DNA from: Archaeoglobus sulfaticallidus PM70-1
GTDB lineage: Archaea; Halobacteriota; Archaeoglobi; Archaeoglobales; Archaeoglobaceae
Length of the DNA stretch: 64,000 nucleotides
Assembly: GCF_000385565.1 (NCBI RefSeq)
Contig: NC_021169.1
Location: forward strand, 1,408,571 to 1,472,570
Direction of reading: 5' to 3'
Part shown: positions 4,772 through 8,237 of the stretch, piece after piece
How positions within the stretch are numbered: the stretch's first letter is position 1
How the letters are laid out: the number at the start of each line of letters is the position of its first letter
Program-made: the position numbers and the translations under genes
Notes under the pieces: generated by a model
What the model saw: the letters and a program-made list of their open reading frames with translations, nothing else
Database searches by the model: none
Told to the model about the DNA's origin: nothing

Positions 4772-4831
4772 ATACTAGCTACAACCGCGGGAATTTAATC
4801 CTTTTCAAAAACAATTAATCTTTCAGTTTTT

Positions 4832-4911
4832 AGTAACTTAACCCGGTTGTTGCACATCGTGGATGTTGTTACAGTAACTTAAGAAAAATCTCACATCGTG
4901 TAAGTTGTGTC
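4832..4911. repeat. Two imperfect ~40-bp direct repeats
   Basis: AGTAACTTA occurs at 4832 and 4873, and CACATCGTG at 4853 and 4892. Each copy of the second core is followed by a GTTGT-containing stretch (GATGTTGTTAC, TAAGTTGTGTC). The two units are about 40 bp each and lie upstream of speE and downstream of the CAP-lipoprotein gene. They could be tandem operators or the remnant of a duplication. There are only two copies and the spacers are not variable, so this is not a CRISPR. Confidence 0.5.
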
Positions 4912-5032
4912 CAAGACTCTTGGAAGCTGGGTCACAAAAAAGGGTCTTGGATCCATCAAGACTCATCTTCACTACTCACATCTCACTCTCCATTCAATAT
5001 CGATATCATATGATGGCCCAAAAACCAATCCC

Positions 5033-6193
5033 TCAGGGATAATATTTAATTTTAATATTAATCTCAACACCATCATAAGTCCTAGAGTAAACGAATAATC
5101 CAGTTCCGACACTGGCGTTGAGAGTTTTTTCGAATGTTTTAGTACTTTCTTTGTAGTATATCTTTTTGAAGCTCTGACTTTTCAAAAAACGATCGAACTG
5201 TTCTTTATCTGGAACGATGTAAACATCTATTGGTTTGGAAGATTCAACCTTGACCGAAACTGGTACTGTTATGTCAAACCCCAACCCCGGATCGTTGAGA
5301 TAGAAAAATGAAGCATACTTTACATTGAGTGTGATATTGTGTTCCTCTTCCAATCCAACCACATTCATCGTAATGAAGCAAGTGTTCTCTTCGCAGTATG
5401 CTCCAACACCAGCGTCGGAAAATAGATTATCTATATCCAGAATAATAGATCTATGGCCCGGACTTTCAAGCCACCCCTCTACGGCGGCTCTGGCAATCGA
5501 AGTTTCATTGTCTTTCGGACCTAAACCAGTCTGATATGAGAGAACCTCTCCAGATACTATGAAAAACATCCCACTCTCCTTCAATCTGTCGTAATGGTCT
5601 TTTCCCTCAGGACTCGTATGCGCAAAATAGTTTCTTTCACCCATATCTTTGCTGTGATTGTAAGCGACTGCTCTTACCCAATCATTCCACTTATAAGGTT
5701 TCAAACCCGCTTTCTCTCTTTCATGATTGACAAATCTAAGAACTTCTCGCTCAATAAGTGTTGTATTTAATTTCGATGCATCGAAAGTGATGCGATCAAT
5801 GTCTTCTTTGAAGACATAATATTTCACCCCAGAATACTCTTGCAAGTTAGACTCATTTAGTTCGAACCTGAATTCAAACGGTTCTCCGCTATAAGTGCCT
5901 TTCAATACTACGATCCCAGGATATAAGATATCAACAGGTAAAGATAATCCCCCATTAGTTGTTTTTCCCAAAAATTTTCCATTGAGGTATACTTCGCCAT
6001 TAAGTGATTCACCAGTTTCATTAATGTAAAAGTAAAAGCTGAATTTTTTTGGAGTTGGTAGAGGCGTCAAAGTCTCTATAGTTTCCAAAGTCGGCATGGA
6101 TGTAGGAGTTTCAACGGATTCTTGTTGTTTCTCAGCACAACCGAGATATAAAATCGTAAAAGTGAAGATTATTATTATCCAGTACTTGTTCAT
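5033..6193 (-). CDS. CAP/SCP-domain lipoprotein
   Basis: 386 residues. An N-terminal hydrophobic signal ends in a lipobox (ILYLGC, Cys19), followed by a Thr/Pro-rich linker. This indicates a surface lipoprotein anchored outside the membrane. The middle contains a CAP (cysteine-rich secretory/PR-1) domain: LRFVNHEREKAGLKPYKWND, YNHSKDMGERNYFAHTSPEG and VEGWLESPGHRSIIL. The C-terminal ~90 residues are beta-rich and unassigned. CAP proteins in prokaryotes are poorly understood extracellular proteins. The RBS GGGTGA lies just upstream of the ATG at 6193. The right end of the TnpB element sits only ~78 bp upstream, so its original promoter may have been displaced. Confidence 0.8.
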   Translation of the reverse strand: MNKYWIIIIFTFTILYLGCAEKQQESVETPTSMPTLETIETLTPLPTPKKFSFYFYINETGESLNGEVYLNGKFLGKTTNGGLSLPVDILYPGIVVLKGTYSGEPFEFRFELNESNLQEYSGVKYYVFKEDIDRITFDASKLNTTLIEREVLRFVNHEREKAGLKPYKWNDWVRAVAYNHSKDMGERNYFAHTSPEGKDHYDRLKESGMFFIVSGEVLSYQTGLGPKDNETSIARAAVEGWLESPGHRSIILDIDNLFSDAGVGAYCEENTCFITMNVVGLEEEHNITLNVKYASFFYLNDPGLGFDITVPVSVKVESSKPIDVYIVPDKEQFDRFLKSQSFKKIYYKESTKTFEKTLNASVGTGLFVYSRTYDGVEINIKIKYYP

Positions 6194-6270
6194 AGTTCAC
6201 CCTCACTTCTTACTTCGCATATATATTGAAATATTTTAAGCTGTCGGAAAGCATCACGAGCTGGGTGAAG

Positions 6271-7640
6271 GTGAACTACTCCGCCCTCACGGACGGAACT
6301 TCCTGTTTCATCGAGAGAACTTGCCCTGCGATCACCTCTCGGTAGGAGATCACGCAGGGTAGAGGTTCTCCCTCCACAGGCGTTCGGGAGCGTCCCATCC
6401 CCACATCCAGAATGTTGAGGGAGGCGTTGTAGTCTCTGTCCGCCTCCCAACCGCATATAGGACAGGTGAAGGTTCGATCGTGTAGTTTCAGGTTATTTAC
6501 GATGTAACCACACATGGCACATCTCTTCGAGGTATTCTTCGGATTTACTTTGACTACTGTGCGAGCAGCTCTTTCAGCCTTCTCGCACAATAGCCTTACG
6601 AACTTTGACCAGGCAGAATCCGTTATGTGTCTGTTGAGGGTTGTAGAGCTACCGTTTTCTGCCATCTCTTTAACGTTTAAGTCTTCTACGACCATTATGT
6701 CGTAGTTGTTGACGTAGTAACGGGAGAGTTTGTGCAGGAAGTCGTTACGTTGATTTTCCAGCTTCTCGTAGAGTTTGGCCAGCCCGATCCTTACTTTCTC
6801 TCTGTTCTTGGAGCCTTTTTGCTTTCTTGATAGCTGTTTCTGCACCTTCTTGATTTTCTCAAGGGTTCTATCAAGATATTTTGGGTGCTCGAAGTAGTTG
6901 CCATCGGAGTCGACGCAGAAATGAGTGATACCTACATCAATTCCTATAGCTCTACCCGTAGGAGGTAGTGGTTGCTTATCGACTTCAGCCTGAACGATGG
7001 CATACCACTTTCCTGACTTAGTTCTTTTGATGATTACGCCCTTGATCTTACCGCCAATGGATCGATGCAATCTGATGGGGATGTCGCCAACCTTAGACAG
7101 AGATAGTTTCTTCCTATCAAAGTCGATCTTGAACCCCGACTGGTTGAAGTTGAGGGTCTTGAAGGAGTTCGGTGAGGTCTTGTAGCGAAGCCAACCGACT
7201 TTCACCCCCTTCTTTCTCAGTTCGTTCAGGGAAGATATATTGCTCCGGAGCTGGTAATTCACCATCTGCAAAACCTTGGAGTACACCTTACTCAGTTCGG
7301 GTTTTTCTTCTCGCTTGATTCTGACGATAAGTGATTGAGTATCTTCTCGTCTTATCCTTCTACCTTCCTTCCTTGCCTTGTTTACCTCTGAAAGTAAGCG
7401 GTTGTATAACCATCTACATAGCTCAAGCTGTTCATTGAGCTTAGCCTGAACGGTCTTGGAAGGATAAATGCGAAACCTGTAGCTGATCAGCATGATTTTC
7501 ACCTGTGAGGAGTTTTGTGTTTTATCTATCCAATTTATGATCTGCATTTCACGAATATATATCTTGAGAGTGGTGTGAAAGTTTTAGCGGGCTCTCATCC
7601 CCTCACTCACACACGCAAGGGGACTTCCCGACCGTGATCG
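6271..7640 (-). mobile_element. orfB-only IS200/IS605-family (IS1341-type) element
   Basis: The element comprises a single tnpB gene with candidate subterminal hairpins at both sides. The right end is defined by the tnpB stop codon running into TAGTTCACC, with an imperfect hairpin (CCGCCC 6281-6286 / GGACGG 6291-6296) inside the last codons. That is the classical arrangement in this group. The left-end candidate is a hairpin with CCCCT (7599-7603) and AGGGG (7618-7622); the exact left boundary is not determined. No tnpA (Y1 transposase) is present, so mobilisation would need one in trans. Confidence 0.7.
6276..7493 (-). CDS. tnpB: TnpB RNA-guided nuclease (IS200/IS605 OrfB)
   Basis: 405 residues when started at the ATG at 7493, which has GGTGA 5 nt upstream; the frame extends 18 codons further upstream. 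TnpB proteins are RuvC-like, omega-RNA-guided DNA endonucleases ancestral to Cas12. The catalytic residues look intact: Asp186 in GIDVG, Glu270 in VVEDL and Asp354 in ADRDYNAS. The zinc ribbon C325-x2-C328 ... C344-x2-C347 is complete. The N-terminal HTH region (YRFRIYPSKTVQAKLNEQLE) is present. The final codons overlap the right-end hairpin, so the omega-RNA would be encoded at the 3' end of this transcript. Its guide would be the flanking DNA below 6271. It looks functional rather than decayed. Confidence 0.92.
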   Translation of the reverse strand: MLISYRFRIYPSKTVQAKLNEQLELCRWLYNRLLSEVNKARKEGRRIRREDTQSLIVRIKREEKPELSKVYSKVLQMVNYQLRSNISSLNELRKKGVKVGWLRYKTSPNSFKTLNFNQSGFKIDFDRKKLSLSKVGDIPIRLHRSIGGKIKGVIIKRTKSGKWYAIVQAEVDKQPLPPTGRAIGIDVGITHFCVDSDGNYFEHPKYLDRTLEKIKKVQKQLSRKQKGSKNREKVRIGLAKLYEKLENQRNDFLHKLSRYYVNNYDIMVVEDLNVKEMAENGSSTTLNRHITDSAWSKFVRLLCEKAERAARTVVKVNPKNTSKRCAMCGYIVNNLKLHDRTFTCPICGWEADRDYNASLNILDVGMGRSRTPVEGEPLPCVISYREVIAGQVLSMKQEVPSVRAE

Positions 7641-7931
7641 TTAAAGGTGGAACTAAACGGAAAAATGAGCTTTCAGAATTCAGCTATACAACTTTCGCAG
7701 CATTCTAGCAGTCAACCCCGTCAATAGGAAAATTTCTAAAGAGATACTTCAAGAGGAATCTTTGTGAATCTGGCTTCTCTTCTAATAAAAGGGGGTTTGG
7801 ATGAGTGGTAAGGTAGAAAAAGGAGGATAGAAGGGAGATGACTCTGTTCGCTGTTGGGCTGTGGCACAACATATTTGCGATTAGGTTGGTGAGGTAGTTT
7901 TGTCCCAAAATCAACTTCACCCTCTAAATTT

Positions 7932-7967
7932 GTGAACTACTCACCGTCTAAAGACGGTGGCTTCTCC
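7932..7967 (-). repeat. Solo IS200/IS605 right-end hairpin
   Basis: A perfect 8-bp stem (CACCGTCT 7942-7949 / AGACGGTG 7952-7959, 2-nt loop) is followed, on the minus strand, by GAGTAGTTCAC. This is the same stop-codon/TTCAC end that terminates the intact tnpB at 6271. No tnpB reading frame is attached. It appears to be the leftover right end of a second, related element in the same orientation. Confidence 0.55.
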
Positions 7968-8020
7968 CCTCGTACTCTGTTTTGCTAACAAGTACACTGT
8001 ATACTGGGGGAGTTTGGGGC

Positions 8021-8170
8021 TAGTTCACCGGCTTAAGCGGTCACAGACCGCAACCCAGCCCTGCTCCTCAGCATATAGCCGAGGAGCCTGTTATCTACGC
8101 ATACTATGCTTATTCAACAAAATATTTAAGAATTCCGCAATTCATCCACCGGTTAAAACCGGTGGTCTTC
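8021..8170 (-). repeat. Cluster of hairpins: second IS605-type end, possible omega-RNA-like remnant
   Basis: Three perfect inverted repeats lie in 150 bp: GCGGTC/GACCGC (8037-8042/8046-8051), GCTCCTC/GAGGAGC (8063-8069/8081-8087) and CCACCGGTT/AACCGGTGG (8146-8154/8157-8165). On the minus strand the last one reads R-P-P-V-L-T-G-G-stop, a typical TnpB C-terminus overlapping its terminal hairpin. There is also a TAGTTCACC string at 8021 on the plus strand. Neither side has an intact transposase. The 7641-7931 stretch between this area and the TnpB element contains no recognisable gene. Confidence 0.5.
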
Positions 8171-8175
8171 TTGCG

Positions 8176-8190
8176 GAGGTCTTATAAATT
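8176..8190 (+). promoter_or_regulatory. Putative TATA box of the CBS-domain gene
   Basis: CTTATAAATTTAAAG lies about 50 nt upstream of the ATG at 8238, matching the archaeal TATA consensus (TTTATAWA-like). It sits directly beyond the last IS605 hairpin, so the gene's promoter appears intact. Confidence 0.5.
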
Positions 8191-8237
8191 TAAAGATACA
8201 ATAATACAGTACTGACAAAAAAAACAGAGGTGATTGA

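Follow-up and report, generated by a model that had tools for sequence, protein, structure and literature searches.

Palindrome-associated transposable elements (PATEs) of Haloquadratum walsbyi are described, in the available part of PMC3119063, as remnants of divergent tnpA/tnpB elements of which only the C-terminal ends are left. In one of them, HqIRS71, an end is extended and still contains part of the tnpB 3' region, and the published families also include single terminal-only remnants. In the text as available, the retained region is taken as non-coding debris or end sequence, with neither a guide-RNA gene nor a promoter proposed; the paper predates omegaRNA. According to the accessible portion of PMC7290912, a PATE-like sequence of about 271 nt in Halanaerobium hydrogeniformans consists of 28 nt of left end, no tnpA, the last 58 nt of tnpB and the whole 160-nt right end. 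The omegaRNA (reRNA) of TnpB has its scaffold at the tnpB/right-end side of the element, its terminal bases pair with an upstream loop, its guide comes from the flank, and it is generally encoded together with tnpB (PMC10097598, part available). TnpB has a role in transposon retention (PMC10278001, part available).

The window, the whole stretch of 64,000 nucleotides of Archaeoglobus sulfaticallidus PM70-1 that was analysed, contains two hairpins in the same orientation, less than 250 bp apart and without tnpB between them: CACCGTC-TAAA-GACGGTG at 7942-7959 and a 42-nt palindrome at 8135-8176. A sequence-only reading had taken them for two solo right-end hairpins. Inspection of the sequence bears out their orientation, spacing and lack of tnpB, but they match opposite ends of one IS605 and are therefore a right end (RE) and a left end (LE), not two right ends. 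Positions 7932-8183 of the minus strand are one non-autonomous IS200/IS605 element made up of LE, TATA-like box, omegaRNA scaffold and RE, from which tnpA is wholly and tnpB nearly wholly missing. The features of this mini-element and of its neighbour are, in window coordinates:

7932-8183, minus strand: whole mini-element from LE to RE, 252 bp; ends match the IS605 at G000:C1:3944-5629 of the same genome (G000)
8184-8188, minus strand: putative target/TAM TTTAT adjoining the left end; the same pentamer precedes the LE of the IS605 in G000 and in G178
8135-8176, minus strand: LE palindrome (the second hairpin), 98% identical to G000:C1:5588-5629, the tnpA-side end
8119-8129, minus strand: TATA-like box TTAAATATTTT, 36 nt before the omegaRNA start, a putative promoter from its sequence and the comparable position of such boxes in many solo omegaRNAs
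7932-8093, minus strand: complete omegaRNA scaffold, from covariance model R1 (E = 7.2e-11) and alignment to the IS605 omegaRNA
8030-8054, minus strand: extra 25-nt hairpin in the SL2 loop, not in the IS605 copy (alignment)
8023-8028, minus strand: GTGAAC, 5' half of the pseudoknot; pairs with the terminal GTTCAC and co-varies between elements
7942-7959, minus strand: RE hairpin (the first hairpin), from sequence; matches the IS605 tnpB-side end
7932-7937, minus strand: GTTCAC, right-end terminus and 3' half of the pseudoknot, from sequence and pairing
from 7931 downwards, minus strand: predicted guide, host DNA adjoining the right-end terminus
6271-7639, minus strand: neighbouring tnpB-only element, not part of the mini-element (limits by eye)
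6276-7547, minus strand: the neighbour's intact tnpB (open reading frame)
6271-6427, minus strand: the neighbour's own, different omegaRNA (R1, E = 1.2e-4)

The LE limit was inferred from the TTTAT boundary common to two IS605 copies (G000 and G178), so that TTTAT adjoins the left end in three insertions. Both pseudoknot halves, one in the upstream loop and one at the 3' terminus, are intact. Folded as RNA, the minus strand of 7926-8180 reaches -104.4 kcal/mol, where shuffled sequences average -69.9 (z = -7.04; 0 of 200 shuffles equally good). The reading RPPVLTGG-stop, noticed earlier in one hairpin, is real on the minus strand (by eye); it is part of the LE palindrome, not the tail of a TnpB. 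Among the origins offered for the hairpins, relics of nested insertions fall away, as both ends belong to one element and match an intact IS605. A miniature element agrees with the match of both ends to one IS605 family, and a stand-alone guide-RNA locus with the complete scaffold found by R1 and alignment; here the two are the same thing.

A copy search of the own genome (2,076,931 bases, one contig, circular chromosome) found the exact mini-element as a single copy. The other matches are G000:C1:3944-4084 (78%, query 32-198), G000:C1:5588-5629 (98%, query 236-277) and two short partial ones. A lack both of further copies and of a transcript had been named as the outcome that would make the hairpins plain debris; as to copies, it holds for the exact mini-element, but a parent, a second solo and many solo relatives exist. 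The intact parental IS605 at G000:C1:3944-5629 has its RE and tnpB on one strand and tnpA on the other, followed by the LE; its TnpA is recognised by Pfam. The first hairpin of the window corresponds to the parent's tnpB-side end and the second to its tnpA-side end, and the parental TnpB tail reads ...GRSHRL-stop into an RE-type hairpin. Relative to the IS605 omegaRNA, that of the window carries ten substitutions (our count), one added A and the 25-nt hairpin in the SL2 loop. The sole change in the SL2 stem, G-C to G-U, keeps the pair and makes a stop codon, noted by eye, in the old tnpB frame.

The scaffold closest to the window omegaRNA is that of the IS605 TnpB (P0001, G000:C1:4029-5150), which lies about 0.67 Mb away round the circular chromosome and 1.4 Mb along the contig. 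To judge from the scaffold, P0001 would be the cognate TnpB, and the genome contains both a TnpA gene and this protein. The IS605 TnpB of G178 is 88% identical to P0001. The RuvC-II motif of P0001 reads IVFGDL where the neighbouring TnpB has the canonical VVEDL, and a glutamate occurs further on (VNEAWTS); rearranged RuvC-II sites of this kind are active in other TnpBs. The suggestion that the hairpins use the neighbouring TnpB (6276-7547) was rejected as unlikely, because its omegaRNA is of a different class and the closest scaffold belongs to the IS605 TnpB. The neighbour's omegaRNA gives a sub-threshold match to RAGATH-18 (Rfam RF03064; 26.9 vs a gathering score of 44.9), and an Rfam scan of 7932-8093 gave no RAGATH-18 match. 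Rfam has no match on the window omegaRNA; the LE palindrome gives a sub-threshold psRNA14 match (E = 0.4).

The mini-element, the tnpB-only element and a CAP-domain gene (5033-6193) make up a 3.4-kb stretch (4772-8237) between spermidine synthase and CBS-domain genes that are adjacent in three same-genus genomes, an insertion hot spot. In these three genomes the two genes are 147-297 nt apart, and neither the CAP gene nor the window TnpB has a match between or around them, so that the whole 3.4-kb insertion is absent there. The proposed comparison with related genomes was thus borne out as to the missing insertion, but not as to the exact letters of an empty site, which were not found at the three loci. 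A fourth ortholog of the locus (L036) lies at a contig end.

Solo omegaRNAs are present in other archaea. A search for the motif GGGCTGNNGTGAACCAGCCC, at most one mismatch being allowed, across 392 genomes of the phylum gave 42 occurrences in 17 of them (reversed-pattern control, 1), and its exact variant was found at 74 loci in a wider genome-contig collection, bacteria included. Merging both searches gave 98 distinct segments, of which 45 have the exact complement of the loop hexamer at the expected distance. With one bacterial row (L202) set aside, a TnpB core lies upstream of 20 partnered loci and is missing there from 24 (profile of 16 TnpBs); the 24 include L126, whose contig ends 248 nt upstream and whose tnpB may be cut off. 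A stricter filter, partner plus perfect hairpin, retains 37 of the 98 segments and was not used for the totals. The hexamer pairs co-vary between elements: GTGAAC/GTTCAC, GTGACC/GGTCAC, GTGAGC/GCTCAC, GTCAAC/GTTGAC and, by eye in L088, GTAAAC/GTTTAC. When 33 solo loci, seven of them duplicates, drawn from another collection, of places already in the set, were scanned for TnpB over the whole stretch on both strands (E <= 0.001), a single match was obtained, the tail in L113. Hosts include Archaeoglobaceae, Alkanophagales, Caldarchaeum, Methanomethylicota, Thermoprotei, a Bathyarchaeon (L158) and a Jordarchaeon (L198), the last with a window-like LE. Rfam at gathering scores had no match on ten loci with solo omegaRNAs.

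A second solo family, with a longer 5' part (GGAATGTTTCCGATGACG...), occurs in Archaeoglobaceae and Thermoprotei (L095, L098, L099, L141, L206, L246, L264, L276), and the tnpB-linked L143 has an omegaRNA matching it. The L143 TnpB piece was searched in 13 genomes for the GTGAGC solos: identity is 72% in G178, 84% in the host of L141 and 42-45% in G016, G036 and the hosts of L172 and L206. At E <= 1e-30 there was no match in G000, G021, G037, G154, G321 and the host of L164, so that a TnpB related to this piece was not found in some of the solo hosts searched. Two IS605-type mini-elements of G046, L007 and L009, share ends and differ in their internal deletions; L007 seems by eye to have no omegaRNA core, and thus not all mini-elements keep the omegaRNA. 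Mini-elements of the L007 kind are under-counted, as the solo loci were found by omegaRNA motifs.

Many solo loci show, by eye, the order LE palindrome, purine-rich stretch, TATA-like box, omegaRNA and RE. An A/T run of at least 7 starting at -70 to -52 from SL2 is present at 11 of 20 solo loci and at 3 of 20 linked ones, four of the 24 non-linked loci having less than 90 nt upstream and being left out (one-sided Fisher p = 0.009, for loci that are non-independent and a linked stretch that is coding DNA). The run lies about 106-115 nt before SL2 in loci with the longer 5' part (L099, L113, L118, L141, L206), and is absent from L126, L129 and L198. In the tnpB-only element L130 this LE and box are found again, here ahead of tnpB. 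L122 keeps bases resembling a tnpB start, and L134 and L113 keep unequal lengths of tnpB tail; these differing junctions point to separate deletions. The window box has no clear BRE before it and lies 36 nt upstream, compared with 25-34 nt in the best family.

The second survey used R1, a covariance model built from nine TnpB-less omegaRNAs of other archaea, the window not being in the training set. At E <= 0.001 it gave at least 60 matches in 24 of the 392 genomes searched. Among the 60 matches listed, 22 are linked to tnpB, 32 are without a TnpB match and 6 have a tail only, as judged over up to 1.7 kb upstream; 34 of the 38 non-linked ones have at least 300 nt upstream. This set is not a neutral sample, as the model was trained on solos and the E-values are rough. 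Among the matches listed, an A/T run starting at -36 to -24 is found in 17 of the 35 non-linked ones considered and in 1 of the 22 linked ones; three non-linked matches with less than 57 nt upstream were left out. L270 is counted as linked; its TnpB match is probably another element's, since an LE stands directly before the omegaRNA. In the best 15 matches (E <= 1e-15) the run is found in 11 and an LE-like word in 12, with TTAC/TTTAC before 9 of them. An Alkanophaga genome alone has at least seven matches, and G178 has multi-copy solo relatives. Many matches of G045 and G046 are without such a run and may be decayed.

R1 also found a second solo in the own genome (L287, G000:C1:343714-343870, minus strand, E = 4.2e-4). 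It has an LE palindrome, a TATA-like AAATTATTTATAT 27 nt before the RNA, an omegaRNA (fold z = -3.1) and an RE ending GTAGTTCAC; neither TnpB in its 3.7-kb stretch nor Rfam gave a match. Its omegaRNA shares blocks with the tails of the neighbouring TnpB (6276-7547) and of L021, and is of the same class. Each of two TnpB classes of this genome has thus left a solo, and the layout is common to both. The layout LE, TATA-like box, omegaRNA, RE without tnpB thus recurs in other archaea and once more here. Two further arrangements were seen in this genome. At G000:C1:166995-168450 (L005, L019) a tnpB 3' end runs into an LE-type palindrome with an RE-like hairpin upstream, apparently an inverted order of gene and ends. 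A TnpB frame at the contig start (G000:C1:1-198, L020) and a right end at the contig end (2076642-2076931, L004), just before which lies a degenerate RE, probably belong to an element that spans the join of the circular chromosome.

At least one solo-only family keeps its RNA structure through compensatory changes. Alignment A5 comprises the nine solo omegaRNAs on which R1 was built, all of one family and from six hosts, L132, which is without SL3, being left out, and the structure was written from one member. In A5, 91.7% of cells are paired and 19 of 48 pairs have a double change. The covariation score is 0.322 against 0.147 in shuffles, none of 500 shuffles scoring as high; the further pair types were reached in 2 of 500, and slid structures gave far lower values. 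SL2 and the pseudoknot add nothing, as they never vary, partly because the search pattern fixed both. The RE hairpin fits less well (74.6%), partly owing to the alignment. RNAalifold on its own gave stems similar to those of the written structure. Pair counts did not draw on a MAFFT alignment of more distant omegaRNAs, the 3' half of which was misaligned. Letters common to L096, L133 and L172 between the box and SL1 suggest that the A5 members had a solo ancestor; alternatively, each may descend separately from unsampled tnpB-linked parents.

By combining these observations, it is possible to outline how the mini-element might persist. The reading that we are inclined to prefer, from comparison of the sequences, is a PATE-type IS605 element, non-autonomous but retaining a guide RNA of its own that a distant cognate TnpB would use in trans. 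The TATA-like box would drive the omegaRNA, with host DNA just past the right end as its guide, and the TnpB of the full IS605 would bind this RNA in trans. Were the mini-element lost through excision by TnpA, or through a failure of TnpA to copy it, the empty site, TTTAT followed by the guide (AAATTTAGAGGGTGAAGT), would be cut by the complex, and repair from an occupied copy would then restore the mini-element. As every insertion needs a guide for its own site, the mini-element could not borrow that of its parent, which would explain why the minimal unit retains LE, promoter, omegaRNA and RE. Such an element would fit the retention scheme set out for TnpB in the available part of PMC10278001.

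The main rival, which we hold to be possible though rather unlikely, is a dead remnant: an internal deletion removed the core of an IS605-type element, and the omegaRNA, unused, is still there as the deletion is recent. The mini-element is indeed single in its genome, and the 25-nt insertion within the scaffold may spoil TnpB binding. Any internal deletion that spares both ends joins promoter and omegaRNA without selection; core deletions of such kind are described as frequent in Haloquadratum in the available text of PMC3119063, and weakly degenerate RE-only remnants exist (L004). Against a remnant stands the integrity of scaffold, pseudoknot, both ends and box. The recurring layout and the compensatory changes in a solo-only family also argue against it, as evidence for the class and not directly for this copy.

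It is improbable that the solo omegaRNA has been domesticated as a regulatory RNA, guiding a TnpB-like protein to a host or viral target and not to its own empty site. Promoter-bearing solo guide-RNA genes could be retargeted, and the element lies about 50 nt before the CBS-domain gene, but it is absent from the locus in the three same-genus genomes. Moreover, the first 18 nt of the guide match the own genome at their own site and nowhere else with fewer than three mismatches; the single site with three has no TTTAT before it (reversed-pattern control, 4 + 2). TAM plus guide has 13 matches in viral contigs against 1 for the reversed pattern; these were dismissed as targets because 11 of the 13 are a single conserved motif, an unrelated coding one, in contigs of 31-35% GC. 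The omegaRNA motif has two matches in viral contigs, neither in an omegaRNA-like context by eye. A reading of the hairpins as ordinary transcription terminators, or as a REP-like repeat, is most improbable: one consensus terminator-like site does occur (8146-8165, plus strand), but 0.6 are expected by chance, and the omegaRNA scaffold and the match to IS605 ends would be left unaccounted for.

More tentatively than for the trans-guided mini-element itself, it can be proposed that archaea carry widespread guide-only elements (LE, promoter, omegaRNA, RE) which parasitize full IS605 elements in trans, using TnpA for movement and TnpB for retention, each insertion making a site-specific guide. Deletions that join the omegaRNA directly to the tnpB promoter would give rise to them time and again, and they would thereafter spread and evolve as nuclease-free RNA families. 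If solo omegaRNAs are indeed used, then ends, promoter and guide RNA, about 250 bp in all, can suffice as the selfish unit of IS605, TnpB becomes a resource shared by many elements and not only by its own transposon, and the persistence of non-autonomous IS605 elements becomes testable. Annotators gain a recognisable class of RNA genes, the ten Rfam-scanned solo loci having no gathering-score match.

The window element shares with PATEs its derivation from IS605, near-terminal palindromes and the lack of a transposase (PMC3119063, part available): it has IS605-like ends, and its 252 bp, without tnpA or tnpB between them, are too short for a transposase. Several dispersed copies, as in PATEs, are not found; the window element is single in its genome. 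Its anatomy is almost that of the Halanaerobium hydrogeniformans sequence, which differs in belonging to a bacterium, in being one ends-only copy and in having no guide-RNA reading in the available part of PMC7290912. As published PATEs include some with a tnpB tail and RE (PMC3119063 and PMC7290912, available parts), the kind is already known. Guide-only IS605 elements in archaea were not found in the literature searched by title and opening of abstract, nor were PATEs as promoter-driven guide-RNA genes in the available text of papers including PMC3119063, PMC12558985, PMC10278001, PMC8730458, PMC10097598, PMC8987985 and PMC7290912. The promoter-fused guide-RNA reading and its recurrence seem to be new.

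The window omegaRNA agrees with that of TnpB systems in the place of its scaffold, its terminal pairing and its flank-derived guide; it differs in that tnpB is gone and a TATA-like box precedes the scaffold. If used, solo omegaRNAs would be guide-RNA genes that are separate by nature, much as nuclease and guide loci are split in CRISPR-Cas12. IscB systems reportedly have stand-alone, trans-acting omegaRNAs, guide-RNA loci without a nuclease gene beside them; these and the window element alike lack an adjacent nuclease gene, and the nuclease family differs.
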